Assembly (NCBI RefSeq): GCF_965363235.1
Contig: NC_134844.1
Span: forward strand, 88,126,664 to 88,190,663
Origin: Mytilus galloprovincialis
Lineage: Eukaryota; Mollusca; Bivalvia; Mytilida; Mytilidae
Length of the DNA stretch: 64,000 nt
Direction of reading: 5' to 3'
The notes below the pieces were generated by a model. That model was not told the DNA's origin and made no database searches. It was given only the letters and a program-made list of their open reading frames with translations. The number at the start of each line of letters is the position of its first letter. The first letter of the stretch is position 1. A program made the translations under genes and the position numbers. This document shows positions 7,031 through 63,134 of the stretch, piece after piece.

Positions 7031-7432
7031 TTAGTTGTCCGGCAATGTTAAACCTTTTTTAGCCAATTCGTCTTCTTTTTGTCTTCTTTTGTTGGTAGAT
7101 GTATCAGGTTTGTTATCAATCGTGGCTTCAGTTTCCATCGATTTCATCATATGTAGTTCAATATTTTCTTCGGCGTTGTCCTGAACAATTGTGTTTGCTT
7201 TTTGGTGTTTATCTACTGTTCCTACTGAACTTTGCCTTTTGTTTCGTGATGATCCTTGTCCTTCTTTATCTCCATGTTTTCTTTCTTTCTTTACATTATC
7301 ATTTACTATTGGTGTTTTGTCATCTTTTCTGATCTCAGCATCTTCCTCACTCGTTTTTATACTACGGTTCAATATTGTTGCCTCTTGCTTGAATCGTTTT
7401 GCATTCAATACAGTTGTTACAATACAGCAGAT
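7031..7432 (-). CDS. T2 exon: C-terminal cytoplasmic tail
   Basis: After a TTTAG acceptor, the exon opens ICCIVTTVLNAKRFKQ, which is the end of TM4 and its membrane-proximal basic residues. It then runs about 120 residues rich in Lys, Glu, Asp, Asn and Thr, ending LTLPDN and a stop. There is no hydrophobic segment in the tail. The related exon at 62793-63134 conserves blocks such as EIRKD and KANTIV, which suggests selection on the protein sequence. Confidence 0.85.
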   Translation of the reverse strand: MCCIVTTVLNAKRFKQEATILNRSIKTSEEDAEIRKDDKTPIVNDNVKKERKHGDKEGQGSSRNKRQSSVGTVDKHQKANTIVQDNAEENIELHMMKSMETEATIDNKPDTSTNKRRQKEDELAKKGLTLPDN

Positions 7433-10400
7433 CTAAATAAAAGAGTGACCTGAACTATAATCATGTGTTCACCGCAACCTCAAAATTGAATCATGTAAGT
7501 TATATTTCTTTTTAATTAAAGGGTTAATATTAAACATCAGTACATGTTCCATTTAAATATTAAAGAGAGATTACCACATTGAATATCATTTGGCAAAATA
7601 TTGCATCAAATGACTTTTTCTTTAAAACTGAGGATATATTTTAGGGATTACATTTGTAGTGTAACCATCAGTATAGCAGAACAACAGTACAATAAAGAAG
7701 GTTCTGAGTAATGTGAGCAACTAACCCGTCAAGTTTAATTATAACTTTTTGGAGAAAAAAAAATATTTGCCTTCCTGTCTAGAAAGCTCTATGACGAATC
7801 TCTTCTAGTAATGTTATTTTTTTCTTCATTGCATACGAGTACACAGATATACGTTTATATGTAATCAAAGAGCACCACGACTATATAAAAAGGAAAATAC
7901 ATTCGCGTGTTCTTTCAACATTTAATCCATTGTTTTGTGAATTACTTGTCAAATCTATACATTGATTATCTACATTTGCATCTGGTGCAGTAAAATTGGT
8001 ACCTGTGTCGTAAGTATGATATCTATTCCTGCATTTAACTTGTTGATTTTGAATATTAGATTATATCTATGTTAACTGGAAAAAAATAAGGCAGGTGCAA
8101 TGTGTATAAACGGAATTAATCTTCTAGGGATCCTGAAGTCATTCTATATAATAATTTTGATGTAATTTTTATTTATGTCTGTGTTTGTTAGTTTGGGGGT
8201 TCCTTTCTCCGAAAATCTATTTGTCGTACCGATGGTTTTTTTTTTCTTCCTTCCTTTGCTTACTTGATAACAGCATGATAACGAATGAAATTATTACAGT
8301 ACATGTTTGCCTTTTAATCGCGTCCTTATATTCTTAATCATTTTCATAACCTGTTAAAAAAAGATATAAGCAACGGTGACAAGCGGAATCAAACTATACA
8401 ATGTTCCAATGCTCGTAAATAGTACAATCGTCGGTAAAACGCAACTTTGTCTTGATACATGTATTGAAGATGAGTTAAGCAGATAAAGTATGTGTCATGC
8501 ACTGCTCATAGTTCATTATGGTATTAAAGCAATTTATCGAAGCAGTAAAGTTAAAGGCATTTCATCGAAATTTTTACGGGCGCACGCGCTTTTCTTGATG
8601 TCATGTATTGAATAATGAGAATACTTTTCCGTGCTCATTCTTCTCTAGTTTGTCATCTCGACGTGTGGAAAAACAAACAGGACATAAATGAACATCAGCT
8701 AAAATCAGTCACCTAAAGCAACGCGTACTGTTTTTTCGTCATACATCATTTGTGTGGGTTTGCACATACAACATGTACAAATACTAACCTCAGCAAAAAT
8801 GATGATCGCCATGAGTACATTGAAAATTAAGCTGTATACTCCTAATCTGTGTTTAACTGCATCATCACATGACTGAAAGACACAACACAAAACAGTACGA
8901 TAATTCTGACTTATCATGTATGTGCATTTACATGTTAAGTTTTTTTCTTTTCTTAAAATAATGTACATGTATAAAGTAAATTTTAAAAAAGTTCACTGTT
9001 GATATTATTTTTTTTTTAAATTTAAAGTAAAATAATAGTTCATGATAAAGTATTTTTTTTTTTTAAATCATCACAAAAAGATTAAAACTGATAAGTGTTA
9101 TCACGAAAAACACAATTTTAAATTGAATAATATGTAGACTGTAAAGCTTTATTTTGACGATATATCTTAAATAAAGGAATATAAACCAATCAAACAAGAA
9201 TACGTGTGTAAGAGTATTTGAAGCCATTTAATTCATTTGACATCATGTCTGTTCTAAAATAATTATTGGACATTACAGCGTGACTAACACAAATGTCAGT
9301 TAGTTTAATAATCAGGTGTGAACTAGAACAAAGTTAACTGTTTTTGGCTGTTTGTCATATTTCAACCAATACTTGCATCTTATATATCCCAGTGAACTTG
9401 AAATTAAGAATACTACTGATACTAGAAGGACTGCTTCATATCTTGATATTTTCCTCAATATTGATACAGATGGACGACTTCACACGAAAATCTATGATAA
9501 ACGGGACGATTTCAACTTCCCAATTATCAATTTCCCATTTCTCAGCATTAACATACCCTCTGCCCCTTCGTATGGTGTTAACATATCTCAATTAATACGT
9601 TATTTTCGTGCATGTTCACACTATACGCACTGCATATACAGGAGTGTGCTCCTAACGCAGAAACTACTCCAAAAAGTTATGAGGAGGACAGATTAAAAAT
9701 GACACTACGTAAATTTTACGGACACCATCACGAATCGGTTGATCCATACGATGTATCTTTGTCCAAACTAACTATGGATATTTTTACCACGTGTTTGCTG
9801 AGTGTGAATTCGTATTGCTTTAAGACGTGGCACGGTACTTTTCCATCCCAAATTAATTTGTTGGGTTTTGATGTTGTGTTTGTTGTTGGATTTTGTCAAA
9901 TGTATTAACGTTTGTAGATGTAAATCGTATTTTTTCTGTTGTATTTGTGTGTTTCCTTTAAAAATGTCCTGTACAAAGTCAGGAATATGGCCACTGTTTA
10001 ATTATAGTTCGTTTCTGTGTGTGTTACATTTTAACGTTGCGTCGTTTGTTTTCTCTTATTTTTGAGTATAAATTCACATTGCGATAAGACGTGTCACGGT
10101 ACTTGTCTATCACAAATTCATGTATTTGGTTTTGATGTTATATTTGTTATTCTCGTGGGATTTTGTCTGATGCTTGGTCCGTTTCTGCGTGTGTTACATT
10201 GTAGTGTTGTGTCGTTGTTGTCTTATATTTAATGCGTTTTCCTCAGTTTTAGTTTGTTATCCCGGTTTTGGTTTTTGTCCATAGATTTATGAGTTTGAAC
10301 AGCTCTATATTACTATTGTTGCCTTTATTTGTGTTAGGGATAACTGCTCATCAATTTGGTAGATTTCATTTTGGATCAACGAAATTTACACAATACATTT

Positions 10401-24840: not shown

Positions 24841-26045
24841 ACTTAACCGATATTATCAAGATGCTTGATTTCTTAATTGACAACATATTTGTAACGTTCG
24901 AAGGACGTGTTTTTCAACAGACTATCGGCATCCCAATGGAAACAAACTGTGCCCCTCTACTTGCCGACTTGTTTCTTTATTATTATGAGGGTGACTTCAT
25001 GCAGGAACTTCTTAGGAAGAAAGATAAGAAGTTAGCAATATCTGAAACCGATATTATCAAGATGCTTGATTTCTTGATTGACAACATATTTGTAACGTTC
25101 GAAGGACGTGTTTTTCAACAGACTATCGGCATCCCAATGGGAACAAACTGTGCCCCTCTACTTGCCGACTTGTTTCTTTATTATTATGAGGCTGACTTCA
25201 TGCAGGAACTTCTTAGGAAGAAAGATAAGAAGTTAGCAATATCCTTTAACTCTACTTTCCGCTATATAGATGACGTTCTTTCACTAAACAATTCAAAATT
25301 TGGTGACTATGTGGAACGCATCTATCCCATCGAATTGGAGATAAAGGATACTACAGATACAGTTAAGTCGGCTTCATATCTTGACTTACATCTAGAAATT
25401 GACAATGAGGGTAGGTTGAAAACAAAACTTTACGACAAAAGAGATGATTTCAGCTTTCCAATTGTGAACTTTCCATTTCTAAGTAGCAACATTCCAGCAG
25501 CACCTGAATACGGGGTATATATCTCCCAATTGATACGATATTCCCGTGCTTGCATTTCCTATCATGATTTTCTTGATAGAGGGTTATTGCTCACAAGGAA
25601 GCTTTTAAACCAAGAGTTCCAAATGGTGAAGTTGAAATCATCCCTTCGTAAATTTTACGGACGCCATCACGAGTTGGTTGACCGTTATGGAATAACCGTT
25701 TCACAAATGATATCGGATATGTTCCTTACGTCGTAACTACAATCCCCTTCCCTTTCATGAATGTGACCTACAGAATTAGACTATTTACCGGATTTGTAAT
25801 CACATAAGCAACACGACGGGTGCCACATGTGGAGCAGGATCTGCTTACCCTTCCGGAGCACCTGAGATCACCCCTAGTTTTTGGTGGGGTTCGTGTTGTT
25901 TATTCTTTAGTTTTCTATGTTGTGTCGTGTGTGCTATTGTTTTTCTGTTTGTCTTTTTCATTTTTAGCCATGGCGTTGTCAGTTTGTTTTAGATTTATGA
26001 GTTTGACTGTCCCTTTGGTATCTTTCGTCCCTCTTTTAGATCATT
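24841..26045 (+). mobile_element. RT element (probably Penelope-like), best-preserved copy with 3' tail
   Basis: The ORF at 24861-25736 encodes part of a reverse transcriptase: GIPMGTNCAPLLADLFLYYY (RT core block), FRYIDDVLSL (catalytic YIDD), then YDKRDDFSFPIVNFPFL, SQLIRYSRA and LRKFYGRHHEL, ending TS. The 3' tail follows to TTTGGTATCTTTCGTCCCTC. About 200 bp covering the RT core block occurs twice in tandem (about 24847-25046 and 25047-25246), nearly identical. No upstream domain and no GIY-YIG endonuclease were seen, so Penelope-like is the best guess from the RT style, with a LINE as the alternative. 5'-truncated and not intact. Confidence 0.75.
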
Positions 26046-28081: not shown

Positions 28082-31000
28082 CTGTTGTGAAATAAAACAC
28101 AATGGATGAATTTGCACCAAAATATACTAGAAGTTCAAGGGAAAAAAGTAAATATAAAAAACAAGATTTGGTATGATTGCCAATAAGACAACTCTCCACA
28201 AGAGACCAAATTGAACAGAATTTAATAACTAAAGGTCGCCGTACGACCTTCAACAATGATCAAAGCCCATACTGCATTGTTTTAAAAGACCCCGAAAAGA
28301 CAAATGTAAAACAATTTAAACGAAAAAACTAACGGCCTTATTTATGTAAAAAAAAGTTAATGAAAAACAAGTATGTAACATAACGACAACCACTGGATTA
28401 CAGGCTCCTGACTTGGGACAGACACATACATACAGAATGTTGCAGGGTTAAACATATAAACGGGATCCCAACCCTCCTTCTTTCCTTGAACAGTGGTGTA
28501 ATAGTAAAACTTAAGAACGAGCTATAAAAATCAGTTGACATGCACATAGATACAGACTGAGGCGGGGTTTAATCATTTTTACAACGATTGAAACTTATTC
28601 TTTACAAGTTTATTAAAAGAGTCCATTTCCGGTTCCTTTTAAATTGATACTTTACGTAAGAACTAAAAGTATTAAACCGATTTAAAGAACTGTATGTAGC
28701 ATTTCTAGTGAACTGCTTATACATGTATGCATATATGTATAGAAGATGTCTTCAAATATTTTTCAATTTCATTAATTCATTTTATAAAAAAAAACATTTT
28801 ATTAGTATGTTTTTTCAAAATGTCTTCGGTTGTTTGTTTTTATATATCTAGTTTCATGTCTTTTTCATTCCTGTATCGTGTTATAGTTTTCTTCTGCTTA
28901 TATAGTCTTTGATCTTGAATGGTGTTTTGAATCAAAGATAACCAGTAAGTGTATGATAATATCTATTCAACTACATTGAATTACATATTCAAATATTTTT
29001 ATAGCACGTTATAATGATATACCTCTAAAACAATTTGCAGGAACGCAAACGCAAGAAACCAACCAACAAACATTCTAGTCTTGAACAAAATTGCATCTGC
29101 ACATGTCTGAAAGATATTGATTAATTATGTTAAATGCGTGTGATTTACAAAATACAAGGTACTAAGAACACAAAAAAAAGCAAACAACAACATTATTAGA
29201 ATGGGTAATTTTTGACCAGAAAAGAGAATATATTATAGACAAAAAAATGTAATGTTTTATCCTGACATATATTTTGTTTTAATTAAACTATTCAGCTTTA
29301 ATGTGTGTTTAGATTAGGTCCTGTTTTGTTATGCTTTGCTTTCAACTTTTTTATATTCAAATTGGTTTTTACCTAGTTGGTCTCGCGAGCACCTGATTTA
29401 GACTTCCATGTCTTTTGACAGATTGGTGAGGTATATTATTATATAGTTGAATGCAATTTTTCAATAAAAAAAAAGAAGAGTATCTTACTGCATATTTGAA
29501 AAAACTTCAAAATACAGTTAAATTCTCATTCCTTATGTCAAGTTCAAGAAACACCCGTTCTGAAAAAGCTTTGCTCTTATATAGAAAAAGAAACACTTGT
29601 GTTTGTACTCCTGGCTTGTAACTTATAGAACCTCTCTCACTTGTTTTGTGCATATTGCAAATATTGTTGTATTTGTTATCTCTATAACGATGTAATATAT
29701 ATTATATGTTATATTTACATTCACTCATGGCTAGTTCTGAAACATGTTTGTTCGCACTGAAATCAAATCATATACGTCTGTACTCAGGAAAATGAATTTG
29801 ACTACTGAACTTATTAAAATTCTGTTAAGACCAGTAAGCTACGTTTGTTTTAATTTCATATAACACGGTTAGATAATGATTCCATCAACAGATTAGGAAT
29901 AACCTAGTAAACTATCGTTATCTTTTTGAAACTTACTTCTGTTTTGTATCCACCACATCCCCCAAAATAATTATCTAATAGTTCAGAGGCATGAGTTGAA
30001 CTTGTATTTGAATCCAGTATACTGGGATGAGCATTTTTACAACAGAATTCTTTTCCCTTTGTGTCATATGTGTCATTGTAATAATTAACGCCACAACACT
30101 GCAACTGAAAACATCGGAAGAATACTTTATGTTCATAAAGGAAAATTCTCACGATGGCGAGTTATGAACTAAGTATTGTTTTGTAGTGCTAAATTATTGT
30201 TTGTTTTTGTTCTAATTGAGATTGTGACACAGTGATGACTGCCGTACCCATTTTTTGACAATCTTACCTATTATGTCTGTTTTGTTCATGCATTGTTGCA
30301 AATATAGTGGCATTTAATGCGACTGTCATACAAGTGATAGGTTTAGCACTGTAAAACCAGGTTCAATCCACCACTTTCTTCATGTGAAAATGCATGTACC
30401 AAGTCCGGGATATGACAGTTATCGTCCGTTTGTTTGATGCGTTTTGTCATTTGATTTTACCATTCGATTAGGGACTTTCCGTTTTGAATTTTCGTCGGAG
30501 TTCAGTATTTTTGGTGATTTTACTTTTTTGTATCAACTGGTAATATTTGGGTACTGTGCGATACTTTATTCTATCTGCGTAAGCTTCGTCAATAATTCAT
30601 TTTTTTTATTTATTTCAATTTTTTATTAGCAATTCTGTTTTCATGTTTTCTATAGCCTTTAATTAACTTCTTGAATGATTGAAGCTAACCTTTTGAGTTT
30701 TTATTAAATATACATGAATAATGACAACTGAAAACATATGCATTTCTTATGTTTTTCAATGTATTTTTTTTTTTTTTGTAATTGTAATTGTTCTTAATAC
30801 TGGTGTTTCGTTATAAGAGTTTTTCCTTTTAAAATGATTGCTACATGTATGCTAGCAATTGAATCAAGGGTTATAAATAGTGGAATTTAAGTACTGTAAG
30901 TACAATTTTGTTGATTGTTGTGTAATATGTGTCAAAGATTACATATATTATCTTTCTAATTGTCTCCATTTTTAACTTTAAAAAAGGGAAGATATCGTTT

Positions 31001-34000
31001 TTTACCAAATGTAACACACGAAATGAAGTATAAGATGGATGAAACTTGTGGTACTACCCTCCCTGTGCATTTCCTGTGATTATTTTAGGTCTGTATGAAC
31101 TCGCGTATTCCTAAATCATTATTTCCTGCGTTTGTGCTGAGAACTGTTGTTTTTTTCATTTCGTCATGTTTGTCTTTTTTATATGACTCATTTTCTATTT
31201 TTCCCTTTAGGTCTTCACTTTCTTAAAGAAGAAATGAGTGTGCATTTGATATCTTATTATAATTATTTAGCTCTTTCAATTTTTTCAAAACACAGTTACG
31301 GCGAACACTTTATTTGCACATTTACGGTAGCATTTAACTTACTGTCATAATCATGTTGTTCCATTTTTCAGTAATTGTATTTCCTTTGTCTTTATAAAAA
31401 TAGCCTGACTGTTGTAACTCTAACTGAAATTTCATATCACTATTTATCTAAAAAGCAATTTAATTTTCAATGTTAATGACATATTTTTGCATTATAATAC
31501 TTTCTATAAATGTTTCAAATGTATATCGCCCATTCTAGTTTCTCTATATATTGGGTTCTTGTGATTTCTTTATTTCTTTTGTCGTGTGGTATATTCCAAT
31601 TTGATCAAATAATTTAGAAAATAGATCAACTACTGTCGATTCTTTCTTATTTTTAGAAGAAAAATCGGTATACTTCTGTCGCTTCTTATTTACATACAGT
31701 CCATAGATTAAACATTTTTAGTTGAAATCAAAATATTATAAAACAGGACTTATCTACAACATGTACCAATAGTCACCGGCTTTTTATCAATTAGTCCGTA
31801 CCAAAGAACAATAATTCAATTATATGCTTGTACAAATTATACTCTGTTTGATAATTGGAATATAATTATCATGTATACATGGTATAAGTGTCAGCGGCTC
31901 AAAGAAAATTCAAAGGATATCTATATATGCATAAATGTATTCTATATAACCACTGGGTCGCAATCCATGCCACTACTTTTAATTCCCCGAGGGTATCACC
32001 AGCCCAGTAGTCATCACTTCTGTGTTGACATGAATTATCATTGAAATTGTCACACTTATAAATTAAGTGTTTACAAAACTTGGAATTTTTTAAATACTAA
32101 GGTTTTTTTACCGCAAGAACATATAAATAAAGGCAACAGTAGTATACCGCTGTTCAAAACTCATAAATCCATGGACAAAAACCAAATCGGGGTAACAAAC
32201 TAAAACCGAGGGAAACGCATTAAATATAAGAGGAGAACAACGACACAACATTAAAATGTAACACACATAAACAAAATCCAACGAGAATAACAAATATAAC
32301 ATATATATATAACATCAAAACCAAATACATGAATTTGGGATAGACAAGTACCGTGACACGTCTTATCGCAATGTGAATTTACACTCAAAAAAAAGAGAAA
32401 ACAAACGACACAACGTTATAATAAATACACACAGAAACGAACTATAATATAACAATGGCCATATTCCTGACCGTAGCTGTATTTTGCATAATTTTAAGGA
32501 ATATTTGGTCTTTAATGCTCTTCAATTTCGTACTTATTTGGCCTTTTGAATTTTGTTTTATTCGAGCGTCACTGATGAGTGTTTTGTCGACAAAAAGCGA
32601 GTCTGGCGCAAATACAAACTTTCGATCCTGGTATCTATGATGAGTTAATTTATAAAAAGCAAGTGTATATGAAATATTTACAGTTTATCAAGGTATAGTT
32701 TTCGTTGCAGGAGTTCGTTATTTTGTTCACCCACCATTCCACTCAATTTGGAGTCGATTATGTTTAATGTTTGTATACAAAGTTTGTAGATATATTTTCA
32801 TAGTGTATACTTTTCTATTATTGAATTGGTAATGCATGTCAGATTTTATGTGAAGGACTTTAATTTGAATAATATTAAATGTATTTAATATAAAAGGATG
32901 CTATATCTTTTTTGGAACCTCGTGTTACTTTTCACCCCTCTTGGGCTGTCACTTTCGAAACTCCAAAAGAGTGATTGCTTAATTTTGGTTTCACTATTTG
33001 TAGTTTATTTTGATATCAATCGGTTAAATGACTATAGTCTTTAAATGAAAAATATATTTGTCATACAATTTTACGATCAAACAGTTTGGCAAAAATTAAG
33101 TGCATACCTTTCTAATGAAAACTATCCATAGTATAACTGCAATGAATCTTGGTATATGTATGTAACAAACTTCAGTTAATTATTTATATGATTTATTTTA
33201 CACCTAGGACTATATTTTATGTTATCTCTTATTTTCACTAACACCGGTAATCTAGTCAAGCAGACCTTGTTTATCACGTGATTACGCACCTATTGAAATT
33301 TAACAGGTGAGTCTCAAATCAGTCGGCACATGATCATTGAGAGTAGCACACGTTTGTGCAGTTGGGTTTGTGGTTTAGATAGCAATTTGGACATTATAAT
33401 TGTCAGGACAGGACATGGATGTCCAAAGGCTAATTGAAACAACACTCAGGTAAGTTATTTTACTTATATTTTATGGTACATTGAGGTCAATTTGCTGTCG
33501 AGATGATATTTCTTGCTCGCGGTCCAAATGTACGGATAATTGCCATATTATTCATATTTATAGATAACGTAAGTAATTTTTGGGTTCAATTATTATTTTG
33601 CAGGGGTTTTTAGGCCCGGTTTTAGTGTGCGTTGGCACGTTGCTAATTGTCGACTGGTCGGAGATAATGGTGTCGATGAATTAATGGTGTCGGGGTTAAA
33701 AATGGTAACAACTCGGTGATATATTGGTTGGAGTTACAACGCATGGAGGCGGTGATAAATTTATAGTCCGTTTCTATTTATTTGGAGCAAAAAGTCCGTA
33801 AAATTATATACATTTTTAGTTGAGAAATCGAGAAGTCCGTGCAGTATTTATGCAGTTTAAAGCAGTTATAGTTTGTTATTCAGCATTATATTTATTCATA
33901 CAAATTTAGTGTTCTCTTCAATCAATTTAGAAGCAACCAGATATATGTGAAAATTAGTTAATTCGTCCGTTTAATTATAAAGAGAAATTTAAAGGGGAAC

Positions 34001-37000
34001 AACCCAGTTCATCATTTACATCTACAGTACGTACAACGAGGAACGTATCCGGGCAGTGTGCGGAAAGTGTGCAGGCCGAAATTTGTTTGATTTATGTTTA
34101 TTTCATGACATTTTGTTTTGTTCCGTGTGTGTTTATTTAGTTACATTTGTGTTCTCATTTCATATTACATTTTTTGTTGAATTTACTTTATTTTGTTTTG
34201 TTAATTAAATTTATATTTTAATTTGGTTTTGTATGACATTGGCCACCTGACAATTCCCAAAGAACTTACTTCGTTACAATGGTGGCAGCGGTGGGATTGT
34301 CACTGTGCCAATTGTTATATTAGAAAATATTGTCAGATAGACAACAGGGATTTTTTTTTTGTTATATATTTTGTTTTTTTTTTTTTTTTTACTGATATAG
34401 CTTAATTTCAGATTAGATTTTGAAGTTTGTTGTTTCTTGTCGGACTAAATGTTCTTTAGTCTCCTGGAAAGGGACGTTTGTAACAAACTTCAGTTAATTA
34501 TTTATATGATTTATTTTACACCTAGGACTATATTTTATGTTATCTCTTATTTTCACTAACACCGGTAATCTAGTCAAGCAGACCTTGTTTATCACGTGAT
34601 TACGCACCTATTGAAATTTAACAGGTGAGTCTCAAATCAGTCGGCACATGATCATTGAGAGTAGCACACGTTTGTGCAGTTGGGTTTGTGGTTTAGATAG
34701 CAATTTGGACATTATAATTGTCAGGACAGGACATGGATGTCCAAAGGCTAATTGAAACAACACTCAGGTAAGTTATTTTACTTATATTTTATGGTACATT
34801 GAGGTCAATTTGCTGTCGAGATGATATTTCTTGCTCGCGGTCCAAATGTACGGATAATTGCCATATTATTCATATTTATAGATAACGTAAGTAATTTTTG
34901 GGTTCAATTATTATTTTGCAGGGGTTTTTAGGCCCGGTTTTAGTGTGCGTTGGCACGTTGCTAATTGTCGACTGGTCGGAGATAATGGTGTCGATGAATT
35001 AATGGTGTCGGGGTTAAAAATGGTAACAACTCGGTGATATATTGGTTGGAGTTACAACGCATGGAGGCGGTGATAAATTTATAGTCCGTTTCTATTTATT
35101 TGGAGCAAAAAGTCCGTAAAATTATATACATTTTTAGTTGAGAAATCGAGAAGTCCGTGCAGTATTTATGCAGTTTAAAGCAGTTATAGTTTGTTATTCA
35201 GCATTATATTTATTCATACAAATTTAGTGTTCTCTTCAATCAATTTAGAAGCAACCAGATATATGTGAAAATTAGTTAATTCGTCCGTTTAATTATAAAG
35301 AGAAATTTAAAGGGGAACAACCCAGTTCATCATTTACATCTACAGTACGTACAACGAGGAACGTATCCGGGCAGTGTGCGGAAAGTGTGCAGGCCGAAAT
35401 TTGTTTGATTTATGTTTATTTCATGACATTTTGTTTTGTTCCGTGTGTGTTTATTTAGTTACATTTGTGTTCTCATTTCATATTACATTTTTTGTTGAAT
35501 TTACTTTATTTTGTTTTGTTAATTAAATTTATATTTTAATTTGGTTTTGTATGACATTGGCCACCTGACAATTCCCAAAGAACTTACTTCGTTACAATGT
35601 AAAGCTAGAGAGAAAACTGAACTCTGAAATGAAAGGGCTTACAATTGTATTTTATTGACAATCATTGCGTACTTATTTATTTTATAATGGGTTGTGTCAC
35701 TGAAGCATCAATCAATCAAATCAATAAAACATCCTAAGGATACCATGCAATTTCCAAAGGAGTAGGTCCGATAAGGGCTGATTTTGGCCTCAAATTTCAA
35801 GTTCATCTAACGAAAGATTTTGAACAGTTTTTAATCATTTAAGTGTGTATTTCAATTGATTCAATTAGTTTATGTGAAAGATTTTAACTGATTTTATCAT
35901 TACAAATGCTCCGATTCAAACTTAAATATGAAAAATCTATCAAATATGCTAAAAAACGTCACTCTTCAGTTGTTTTTTGTCAAAAAGGAAAGTGGTCGCA
36001 TCCGTGTTCATCCTCAACCTTTTTAAATGTTATGTATTGTCATCAAATACAACTTTCATCTCAATATTATGAATGAACACGAATGCGGCCACTGTCATTT
36101 AAGACGGAAACCATCTAAAATTTAACTAAAATGCTGAAATTGTGAAGATTTCAGTAATTTAGTATGACTATATGGTGCTAGTACACGATATATGTGCATT
36201 GTATTGTCAAAAACAGCCCATATGTAGCAGAAGCATTCTTTTCCAATAAGTAGCTAAAAGATTACATTTTCACAATTTTGTAAAACTGCTCTATTTTGGG
36301 GCCAAAAAGGGTTCTTACTAAACCTACTCCTTTAGATAAGATGTTAAGACATTTTGTAACGGTAAATTTAATTATACAAATTTGTGTGCCACTTCCAAAG
36401 TACTGGCTACTTGGAGGATGCTATCTTTTAGGAGTAGCAATCTTTCTGTATTTACTTTAATCCATCTGTTTATTCGTCCTAGGTCTACGTAAAGTTGTAT
36501 AACTAACTTGTCTAAAGAAACGCGTGATAAGTTGAATGACCAAAGAGGAACCTAAACTACTAGCATATGTAATAAGCTTTTCACAACAGTAGAATTCAAA
36601 TCAATTTTTCTCTGAAATATTGTTTAATGAACTGTCAGTGGATATATTTATATATTATATGAGTATATATAATTCTTGTAAATATCAGCCAAACAATGTT
36701 AGATCTGTGAATTTGTGTGAGCAAATTTTTGTTCCTTCCCTCTCCGGGATTCAAATTCATGCGAATGATTCGAGGCACCAAATCGGATGCACTATGCCGA
36801 CGCGCTAGACCACTAAATAATTGTATATCTAGGTGTCTTTTGTGAAACATTATTTAATTTCTTATTGTTTGATTTATTCTTAATCGTCTATTCATATATC
36901 TAACCAACCTGTTGCTAAATAACATACCGTTACAAGTATCCGTGGTGATTTCTTCCAAGATCCAACTAAGCCAAGAACAGCAGTTGAGGTCGTTAAAATC

Positions 37001-38281
37001 CCAATTACTACAGAAGCTGCAGCAAGACCCGCAAGTATATCATAGAAATAGTAGCAGTAAAACTGCAACTTGTAAAATATATGCTTGAGAGATCCATCAC
37101 TAATGAATACGTCCCCTATAAGTGTTAATCCGAGTACAAGGAGCCCAACTCCTGCTGCCTAAAACATACATTTAAGCGTATTTCATTGAGATTCATTTCA
37201 CTGAAGAAGTAGGTTCAGTAAGACCCCTGTTTGGCCCCAAAATATAGCAGTTTTACTAAATTGTGAAAATGTAATATTTAAGCTATTTACTGGAAAGTAG
37301 AATGCTTCTGCTACATAAAAAGAGCTGTTTTTGACAATACAATGCACATATATCGGTTACTAGCATCATTAAGTCATGCTAAATTACTAAAATCTTTACA
37401 ATTTTACCATTTTAGTTAAATTTTAAACGGTTTCCGTCTTAAATGAAAGTGGCCGCATTCGTGTTATATTGAAATGTAAGTTGTATTCGATGATAATACA
37501 TAACATATACGGATGCGGCAACATTTATTTTTGACAAAAACCATCTGAAAAGTGACATATTTGATTAATTTTTCATATTTAAGCTTGAATCGGAGTGTTT
37601 TAATGACTAAATCAGTTAAAATCTTTCACATAAACTAATTGAATCAATTGAAATAGACACTTAAGTGTTTGAAAAGTGTCCAAAATCTTTCGTTATATGA
37701 ACCTGAAATTTGAGGCCAAAATCGGGCCTTACCGGACCTACTCTTTTGGTGTCTAACTTATATACGGTATTAAATAATATCAATAATTTCATCATCTGAA
37801 AACATTTTTGTGCCATCATATGCAGACGAAATTAGCATTAATATTAGGATTAAACTTATATACCAGCTAACACTTCAATCTTTTATATCTGTGTACAGAA
37901 CCTGATTTTTTTATTAGTTGTTAGATGCTTTGAACTAGCTGTACCTAGTGTCTTTTTATTGTTGGGATGTACAAGTACCCGTCTACGTCCACTTGTATTT
38001 TTGTCCATCTGATGAGATAAGCCTTTTTCAACTGATTTGTATAGTTCGTTCTTATGTTTTACTGTTATACATGTTATACCATTGTCCCAGGTTATAACAC
38101 ACTATATAACAACACATTATGAAATAGATGAAATTGTTAAGCTCTCATGGTATTTCTCTATCAAACGATCAATAGTATGGCAGTTTAATGTTTTTGAATT
38201 CAATTCTTATATAATAAATCAGTACAAATACTTACAAGTGAGTTTATCTTTAGTATGACCGACGCAACCACAACTTTTGAC
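27926..38281 (-). CDS. Tetraspanin T3, TM3 exon interrupted by an LTR element
   Basis: Exons in reading order: 38236-38281 (start of TM1), 36934-37158 (rest of TM1, small loop, TM2), TM3 exon in two parts (35602-35623 and 33108-33160), 31343-31447 (LEL part 1), 29937-30104 (LEL part 2 with LQCCGV), 29023-29106 (last LEL cysteine and TM4), 27926-28081 (tail). Together they encode about 285 residues of a canonical tetraspanin, with CCG, CC and GC cysteine motifs. All junctions are phase 0, except that the first found exon begins with a base completing a split codon. A candidate ATG exon is 38404-38417 (14 nt, GTATTT donor), correct in phase but weak. The LTR element at 33161-35596 splits the TM3 exon, so the allele in this window should not produce a normal protein. 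The other exons look intact, which suggests the loss is recent. Confidence 0.85.
28160..28440 (-). repeat. Dispersed repeat R1, reversed copy
   Basis: Contains GGTATGATTGCCAATAAGAC, ACTCTCCACAAGAGACCAAA and GGTCGCCGTACGACCTTC, shared with 45935-46110 and 55925-56120. Located in the last T3 intron. Confidence 0.7.
29023..29106 (-). CDS. T3 exon: last LEL cysteine and TM4
   Basis: 28 codons between a TTTCAG acceptor and a GTATAT donor, beginning TCADAILFKTRMFVGWFL and ending IVLE. Same length and cysteine position as the T2 exon at 8789-8872. Confidence 0.85.
29937..30104 (-). CDS. T3 exon: LEL part 2 with Cys-Cys-Gly
   Basis: 56 codons between a TTTTCAG acceptor and a GTAAG donor. It begins LQCCGVNYYNDTYDT and continues through KEFCC and GGCGGYKTE: CCG, a second CC pair and GC, the classical six-cysteine tetraspanin pattern once the next exon's cysteine is included. 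Sequons NDT and NTS are present. Confidence 0.92.
30240..30480 (+). repeat. Dispersed repeat R4 copy
   Basis: Shows TTACCTATTATGTCTGTTTTG, TAAAACCAGGTTCAATCCAC and TGTACCAAGTCCGGGATATG, matching 59330-59455 and 40550-40620. It lies in the T3 intron between the two LEL exons. Confidence 0.6.
31343..31447 (-). CDS. T3 exon: LEL part 1
   Basis: 35 codons between a CTTTTTAG acceptor and a GTAAG donor, beginning INSDMKFQLELQQSGYFY and ending WNNMIMT, leading straight into LQCCGV. A second AG, 24 nt further in (after AAATTTCAG), would give a shorter form in the same frame; the longer form fits the family better. Confidence 0.85.
31945..32085 (+). repeat. Dispersed repeat R2, 3' part
   Basis: Contains CCCCGAGGGTATCACCAGCC and GTGTTGACATGAATTATCA, as in 57340-57400. 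Confidence 0.6.
32108..32460 (+). repeat. Dispersed repeat R3 copy
   Basis: Starts ATAAATAAAGGCAACAGTAG and contains AAACCGAGGGAAACGCATTA and CAAGTACCGTGACACGTCTT. Nearly the same as 62172-62504, whose ends are defined by a paralogous empty site at about 6875. Confidence 0.75.
32455..32650 (+). repeat. Dispersed repeat R2, 5' part
   Basis: Contains AATGCTCTTCAATTTCGTAC, then CGAGCGTCACTGATGAGTG and a GACAAAAAGCGAGTCTGGCG variant. It directly follows the R3 copy. Confidence 0.6.
33108..33160 (-). pseudogene. T3 TM3 exon, 3' part (interrupted)
   Basis: 53 nt ending at a GTATGC donor, encoding RFIAVILWIVFIRK at its end. It stops exactly at the 5-bp target duplication ATGTA (33156-33160) that borders the LTR element. 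With the part at 35602-35623 it adds up to 75 nt, the size of the TM3 exon in T2 and T4, and in one frame. Confidence 0.85.
33161..34278 (+). repeat. 5' LTR
   Basis: 1118 bp, TGTAAC...GTTACA. It contains the short stretch ACATGGATGTCCAAAGGC followed by a CAG/GTAAGT donor-like site at 33447-33455, present in both LTRs. Confidence 0.92.
34280..34298 (+). other. Primer-binding site complementary to tRNA-Leu
   Basis: TGGTGGCAGCGGTGGGATT is complementary to the 3' end (including CCA) of animal tRNA-Leu(AAG), 19 of 19 positions as I recall that tRNA. One base separates it from the LTR end. Confidence 0.85.
34479..35596 (+). repeat. 3' LTR
   Basis: 1118 bp, no difference from the 5' LTR found by eye, offset 1318 bp. 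Confidence 0.92.
35602..35623 (-). pseudogene. T3 TM3 exon, 5' part (interrupted)
   Basis: 22 nt following a CATTTCAG acceptor, encoding SSVFSLA and part of the next codon. It borders the second ATGTA copy. Phase 0 start, as in T2 and T4. Confidence 0.85.
35756..36333 (+). mobile_element. MITE-like inverted-repeat element, copy 1
   Basis: About 578 bp with terminal inverted repeats AAAGGAGTAGGT and ACCTACTCCTTT, extended imperfectly to about 30 bp (TTTTGGCC near both ends). No coding capacity. A related copy in opposite orientation lies at 37203-37747. Class II non-autonomous element, superfamily unknown. Confidence 0.75.
36385..36450. repeat. Short repeat with an AAAGTACTGGCTAC core
   Basis: CCAAAGTACTGGCTACTTGG resembles ACCAAAGTACTGGCTACCGG at 49026-49045, followed in both by a GATGATACTTT/GATGCTATCTTT variant and an (AGT)AGC end. 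It may be the 3' body of the tRNA-like SINE next to it. Confidence 0.45.
36727..36822 (-). repeat. tRNA-derived SINE head
   Basis: On the minus strand, TTTAGTGGTCTAGCGCGTCG resembles a tRNA D-arm with A box, and about 55 nt later AATTTGAATCCCGG resembles a B box (GGTTCGAATCCCGG). The intervening region can form an anticodon-arm-like segment only poorly. It is therefore a decayed tRNA-derived SINE promoter region, not a tRNA gene. Confidence 0.6.
36934..37158 (-). CDS. T3 exon: rest of TM1, small loop and TM2
   Basis: 75 codons between a TGTTTTAG acceptor and a GTAACGG donor. It begins AAGVGLLVLGLTLIGDVFIS, has a small loop with FYKLQFYCYYFYD, then TM2 LAAASVVIGILTT and a GLVGSWKKSPRIL end. 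The Gly-rich end of TM2 followed by a basic turn is typical of tetraspanins. It is flanked on both sides by inverted copies of the MITE-like element. Confidence 0.9.
37203..37747 (-). mobile_element. MITE-like inverted-repeat element, copy 2 (opposite orientation)
   Basis: About 545 bp matching the reverse complement of 35756-36333 throughout. Ends are GAAGAAGTAGGT and ACCTACTCTTTT. It has diverged from copy 1 by scattered substitutions and short indels. Confidence 0.75.
37900..38110 (+). repeat. Dispersed repeat R1, 5' region fragment
   Basis: Contains CATCTGATGAGATAAGCCTT and AGTTCGTTCTTATGTTTTAC, ending CCATTGTCCCAGGTTATAA. I recognise this as the upstream part of the long R1-type mussel repeat. 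Confidence 0.55.
38236..38281 (-). CDS. T3 exon: start of TM1
   Basis: 46 nt between an ATACAG acceptor and a GTAAGT donor: one base completing a split codon, then SKVVVASVILKINSL. It has the same length and phase as 18286-18331 of T2. Confidence 0.7.
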
Positions 38282-62792: not shown

Positions 62793-63134
62793 TTAATCTG
62801 GTTTGTCATTAATCTTGTCATCAAATTCCATAGATTTTATCGATTGTAATTCAATAATGTCTTCGATGTTTTCCCGAACAATAGTATTTGCTTTTCTGTG
62901 TAAATCAGCAGTTCTAACTGACAATCGCAGTTCGTTTTTAGATGATTTGTTTGCTCGGTTATCCTCTTCTTTTCTTTGATTTCTTTTTTTCTTAGCATTA
63001 TCCCCTACTTTTTGTGTTTTATTGTCTTTTCTGATTTCAACTTCCTCTCCATCCGCTTTAACACTCACATGCATCATGTTTGTGTCTTTCTTGAATCGTA
63101 TTGCATTCAATAAAGTTGTTACAACACAACATAT
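62793..63134 (-). CDS. Tetraspanin T5, last exon (partial gene)
   Basis: After an ATTCAG acceptor it begins ICCVVTTLLNAIRFKKD, the end of TM4, then about 97 charged residues ending DDKINDKPD and a TAA stop. It is homologous to the T2 tail exon at 7031-7432. T2 continues for 24 more residues, and the sequence past the T5 stop still matches them (KQKVDELAG against RQKEDELAK), down to a second stop at 62724-62726 in line with the T2 stop. So T5 has a recently acquired earlier stop. Its other exons lie beyond the right edge. Confidence 0.8.
   Translation of the reverse strand: MCCVVTTLLNAIRFKKDTNMMHVSVKADGEEVEIRKDNKTQKVGDNAKKKRNQRKEEDNRANKSSKNELRLSVRTADLHRKANTIVRENIEDIIELQSIKSMEFDDKINDKPD

Follow-up and report, generated by a model that had tools for sequence, protein, structure and literature searches.

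The arrangement analysed here has close counterparts in the ETn and IAP insertions into exons of the mouse (e.g., Reln rl-Alb2), in which a long terminal repeat (LTR) element lies antisense in a coding exon; an antisense IAP in Reln exon 36 leads to skipping of that exon (PMC6466679). For the element, the systems to compare are biv-TRIM and other terminal-repeat retrotransposons in miniature (TRIMs) of bivalves, with two LTRs, a short gene-less interior and a purine tract (PMC6934838), and the Helenus TRIMs, which are non-autonomous, have a primer site and a purine tract and are present in bivalves (PMC10886601). The 64-kb stretch of contig NC_134844.1 (hereafter the window) holds on its minus strand a tetraspanin gene, T3, whose exon for the third transmembrane segment (TM3) is split by a 2,436-bp LTR element on the plus strand (33161-35596). 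We consider it highly probable that this recent antisense insertion of a non-autonomous LTR element disrupts the present allele of T3, the TM3 exon being skipped in frame or the product truncated. The mouse cases share this orientation and position, with a disrupted or skipped exon (PMC6466679), but concern another host and other elements, and the T3 case is known from DNA alone.

The two LTRs, 5' (33161-34278) and 3' (34479-35596), both on the plus strand, are each 1,118 bp long, lie in direct orientation and are identical throughout (0 mismatches over 1,118/1,118 positions). Each starts with TGTAAC and ends with GTTACA, i.e., with the TG and CA termini that LTR retrotransposons require. Target-site duplications of LTR retrotransposons measure a few bp (4-6), and the ATGTA read from the sequence on both sides of the element (33156-33160 and 35597-35601) is a 5-bp duplication of this kind. 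The interior (34279-34478) spans only 200 bp. Starting at 34280, one base after the left LTR, are the 19 nt TGGTGGCAGCGGTGGGATT, a putative primer site with the shape of a tRNA 3' end, including the complement of CCA, which may complement the 3' end of an animal tRNA-Leu. At the other end, a short and imperfect purine tract, GGAAAGGGACG, is followed by TT and the 3' LTR. Neither gag nor pol, the genes of an autonomous LTR retrotransposon, was found in the element, in which no stop-free stretch exceeds 71 residues. The element is a gene-less, non-autonomous LTR retrotransposon on the plus strand, a more exact class than the "LTR element" of the preliminary description of this locus, the LTR structure of which stood. 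Since it has no genes, we infer that another element must have supplied the enzymes for its movement.

Searches for relatives of the element gave little. Within the window, there were only short matches to the LTR (at most 43 bases) and to the interior (at most 39), and no tRNA genes or Rfam families were called. The collections searched for relatives of the element and of T3 comprise viruses, bacteria and archaea, where zero matches say little: the LTR/primer-site pattern and a generic primer-site pattern gave none in viral contigs, and the LTR pattern none in genome contigs. The complement of TGGTGGCAGCGGTGGGATT without CCA equals the 3' end of a tRNA of a viral contig, called tRNA-Met there. 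A pattern for this tRNA 3' end matched three viral stretches, of which two on the same contig (L002 and L003) fall in tRNA-Met, and at the place of the other (L001) no tRNA is called. A peptide pattern from the T3 protein matched 10 stretches in viral contigs, none of them confirmed (0/10). We also asked whether poly(A) hexamers are enriched in the LTR when it is read on the T3 strand, and rejected the idea: there are 8 against a mean of 5.6, and 19.7% of 1,000 resamples reach 8.

The exon interrupted by the element can be put back together. Read on the minus strand and with one copy of ATGTA, its first part (35623-35602, 22 nt, preceded by the acceptor TTTCAG) and its last part (33160-33108, 53 nt, followed by the donor GTATGC) add up to 75 nt, open in phase 0, that encode SSVFSLALHIPRFIAVILWIVFIRK. 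These coordinates, the open frame and the AG/GT borders had been given in the preliminary description and were confirmed, as was the equal length of the TM3 exons of two neighbouring genes on the same strand, T2 (41810-41736) and T4 (14304-14230), both of 75 nt, in phase 0 and with GTAAGT donors. In a scan of the empty-site sequence, the reconstituted exon was the sole 75-nt transmembrane exon; first-order Markov resamples of the empty site, scanned with thresholds chosen when the exon was already known, contained any such exon in 2/2,000 cases and one across the junction in 0/2,000. An alternative TM3 exon, which the preliminary description had raised as the contrary possibility, was absent from the two T3 introns adjoining TM3, scanned for TM3-like exons of 57-159 nt. 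Aligned in register, the TM3 peptides of T3 and T4 are identical at 6/25 positions (p ~0.0004, from shuffles of the T3 peptide). The joined T3 protein matches Pfam Tetraspanin with 53.3 bits (E 3.8e-14; cut-off 32.1), and dropping TM3 from it costs ~31 bits and leaves 22.6, under the cut-off. Our literature search found no description of a 75-bp third-transmembrane tetraspanin exon.

The remaining exons of T3, all on the minus strand, complete a tetraspanin. They are a tentative first coding exon (37766-37819, MMAQKCFQMMKLLILFNT, the start perhaps being the second ATG, at 37816), a TM1/TM2 exon of 231 nt within the Pfam match (36928-37158, phase 0), a first large-loop exon (LEL1; 31343-31447, 105 nt, phase 0), a second one (LEL2; 29937-30104, 168 nt, phase 0) that encodes a CCG motif and additional cysteines, and a last exon (28999-29106) with the last loop cysteine, TM4 and the stop. 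The cysteine motifs of the large loop are CCG, FCC, GGC and TC. All exon joins used are in phase 0; one exon scan took phase-0 exons only, and in another, which took all phases, 4/4 rows were phase 0. Ancestral tetraspanin introns are reported as phase 0 as well (PMC2650405). Among solved structures, the joined protein has weak matches to CD53 and UPK1B (E 0.00012 each). The other exons had been described as open and well spliced; the TM1/TM2, LEL1, LEL2 and TM4 exons are indeed open and bordered by AG/GT or a stop, but the acceptors of LEL1 (-7.8) and TM4 (-4.1) are weak and the first exon stays tentative, by a simple scoring matrix. The TM1/TM2 exon is flanked by two inverted repeat copies, 83% identical over 587 columns, one within the intron before TM3 (35754-36335) and the other just upstream of the exon (37749-37201).

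The course of events that we propose is as follows. A non-autonomous LTR retrotransposon, mobilised in trans with enzymes from an unseen autonomous element, would have inserted antisense in the TM3 exon and duplicated ATGTA. The exon would thereby have grown from 75 nt to more than 2.5 kb, and its recognition should fail. The most likely outcome would be in-frame skipping, which is expected from the phase-0 joins on both sides of TM3, and would give a tetraspanin without TM3; the frame from the TM1/TM2 exon to LEL1 is indeed kept and open to the stop. Alternatively, transcripts could enter the LTR, where the reading frame reaches a stop after 34 codons, of which the first 9 are host-coded. With either outcome the allele should not yield a normal four-pass tetraspanin, and one or the other, with the normal protein lost, appears most likely. 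Along these lines, none of the 39 pairs of strong splice sites (donor at least 4, acceptor at least -2) removes the insert and leaves an open frame. Over five sets of thresholds such pairs number 0/14, 0/39, 1/190, 3/858 and 3/1,373, the loosest set (donor -2, acceptor -8) having been chosen to admit the weakest scored sites of T3 itself; an earlier test gave 0 open in-frame pairs, but at thresholds that three scored T3 acceptors would fail. The knock-out proposed in the preliminary description is hence best restated: a loss of the normal product is probable, and an altered in-frame form, by the frame-keeping skip or by one of the few open pairs, is possible. The literature search, judging by the listings, found no tetraspanin case of a retrotransposon insertion with exon skipping, molluscs included.

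The identity of the LTRs also speaks about age and supports the recent insertion into a tetraspanin TM3 exon that had been proposed, together with the ATGTA on both sides. With 0/1,118 differences, the divergence of the pair is below 0.27% (95% bound). Heterozygosity in the Mediterranean mussel is given as 1.73% (PMC7653742), and at that divergence the chance of no difference in 1,118 bp is ~4e-9. The insertion would thus be much younger than a typical split between alleles and more likely to be segregating than fixed, provided that the host has a mussel-like heterozygosity and that there was no gene conversion between the LTRs. It is likely, on these grounds, that the insertion segregates as a presence/absence allele. 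With so little time for decay, the intact T3 exons are no proof that the interrupted allele works.

Several observations weigh against this reading. The Pfam gain with TM3 is unspecific: a set of 10 composites gives 52.2 bits for the true one and 38.4-57.3 for the remaining nine (T2, T4, four decoys from the window, one reversed and two shuffled). We accordingly do not take the Pfam score to prove this TM3 sequence, since reversed, shuffled and unrelated hydrophobic inserts score alike; it shows that a transmembrane segment belongs at the place of TM3, not that SSVFSLALHIPRFIAVILWIVFIRK is that segment. The likeness of the TM3 peptides of T3 and T2 is weak (4/25 identical, p 0.013), and one decoy beat the T3 peptide against T2 (18 vs 16). 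T4 matches no Pfam family (E up to 1) and the Pfam Tetraspanin match of T2 is sub-threshold (20.9 bits), and the genes used for comparison are therefore divergent. The first T3 exon is uncertain (donor -1.6), gene conversion could also have produced identical LTRs, and both the loss of function and the polymorphism are predicted from a single haplotype. Finally, at the loosest thresholds 3/1,373 pairs excise the element without loss of the frame, and a near-normal splicing could follow.

This last point is the basis of one alternative, in which cryptic sites turn the element into a new intron, whose removal leaves a shortened but usable TM3. The GT at the edge of the element (0.7) is a better donor than that of the tentative first exon and an AG inside the host exon (-3.6) a better acceptor than those of LEL1 and TM4; used together, they would leave 19 open codons, SSVFSLALHFILWIVFIRK, with a best hydropathy of 1.51 vs 2.13 in the native segment. 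This pair is nonetheless absent at stricter thresholds (the 1/190 being a different pair), stronger donors than the edge GT are present inside the LTR, and the number of open pairs at the loosest thresholds is explicable by chance. The other two pairs retain 4 nt and 14 nt of the last part of the TM3 exon, and whichever of the three scores highest takes out most of TM3. Intronisation is in our opinion very unlikely. That the allele is not null in another way, the product of skipping being a stable, expressed protein without TM3 that retains some activity or has a dominant effect, we regard as rather unlikely. The exon consists of 25 codons and is flanked by phase-0 joins, the frame without it is open to the stop, and the mouse offers a documented case of skipping caused by an exonic antisense LTR element (PMC6466679); such a protein would, however, as deduced from topology, carry its large loop on the opposite membrane face from the normal protein, and it scores under the Pfam cut-off. 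A wider version seems to us decidedly improbable. In it, the insertion allele segregates and still yields an altered tetraspanin, which either lacks TM3 and has a changed topology or keeps a 19-residue TM3 after intronisation of the element by its own terminal GT and the host-exon AG; the element would belong to a currently active, undescribed family with excessively long LTRs and next to nothing between them.

T3 may also have been dispensable or dying before the insertion, which would then be neutral debris. Dense repeats surround the gene, its first-exon donor and LEL1 acceptor are weak, and a T4-related stretch with stops (52586-52293) suggests that copies may decay here. On the other hand, five T3 exons (with TM3 counted as joined) have open frames bordered by AG/GT or a stop, the cysteine motifs are present, and 228 stop-free codons have a chance of ~3e-8, a figure that ignores that the exons were picked as open; we find this alternative doubtful. 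An artefact of assembly or of the merging of haplotypes would be conceivable for a structure known from a single sequence, but the exact LTR ends, the 5-bp duplication, the putative primer site and the purine tract, all in the right order, and an exon broken precisely at the duplication are what a real insertion would give, and leave the artefact with hardly any credibility. The disruption of T3 by a recent antisense insertion is the explanation that we prefer.

As for the neighbouring genes, the best-scored TM1/TM2 exon candidates of T2 and T4 measure 231 and 237 nt. T4 has the CCG motif and a weak match to UPK1B (E 0.038), ranked under an unrelated chain (E 0.025). The minus-strand stretch 52586-52293 is 47% identical to the TM1/TM2 region of T4, has stops in the first part of the alignment, and is possibly a decayed tetraspanin copy, perhaps the T1 of the preliminary description. 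Elsewhere, the window contains many short dispersed repeat families, with some pairs 94% identical (e.g., 10001-10330 and 62499-62170). An open reading frame (ORF) on the plus strand (24861-25736) is reverse-transcriptase-like (RVT_1, 19.2 bits, below the cut-off) and includes a 201-bp tandem duplication (24845-25243, 98%), so that the same stretch is read twice. Two related minus-strand ORFs to which no function was assigned, 7031-7408 and 62793-63110, start with MNAKRFK and MNAIRFK, and their DNA stretches are 75% identical.

The split exon provides an exact site for genotyping, one ATGTA vs the element with two, and allows asking how often, in a variable genome, alleles become null or altered through recent retroelement insertions. 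The presence/absence genes of the Mediterranean mussel may represent a similar outcome, being functional on some chromosomes only, but they are whole genes, often in hemizygous regions, whereas T3 is present and interrupted (PMC7653742). Exonic insertions of LTR elements are familiar events, and the structure of this one is unusually clean. The putative primer site, perhaps of the tRNA-Leu type, would set the element apart from another bivalve LTR retrotransposon, the Steamer-like MchSLE1 of Mytilus chilensis. The LTRs of MchSLE1 are 185 bp long, and it encodes a polyprotein and has a primer site for Asn tRNA (PMC11046912), whereas our element has longer LTRs and no polyprotein. Animal Helenus elements make 4-bp duplications, and Helenus measures 311-1263 bp, against 5 bp and 2,436 bp here; the primer-site sequence of the animal ones is common to Gypsy elements (PMC10886601). 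In this comparison the LTR of our element shows a GGTTC-like stretch and nothing more of that kind, with no tRNA gene called in the window. The primer site of biv-TRIM was, in the text of its description, not unambiguously identifiable by its authors, whereas a candidate of tRNA type is seen here (PMC6934838). TRIMs are defined there as shorter than 1000 bp with LTRs of 100-250 bp (PMC6934838), so that our element, with its LTRs of 1,118 bp, falls outside the strict definition on size and resembles TRIMs otherwise. The locus indicates recent activity of an LTR element that has no genes and whose LTRs are far longer than those of TRIMs as that source defines them (PMC6934838).

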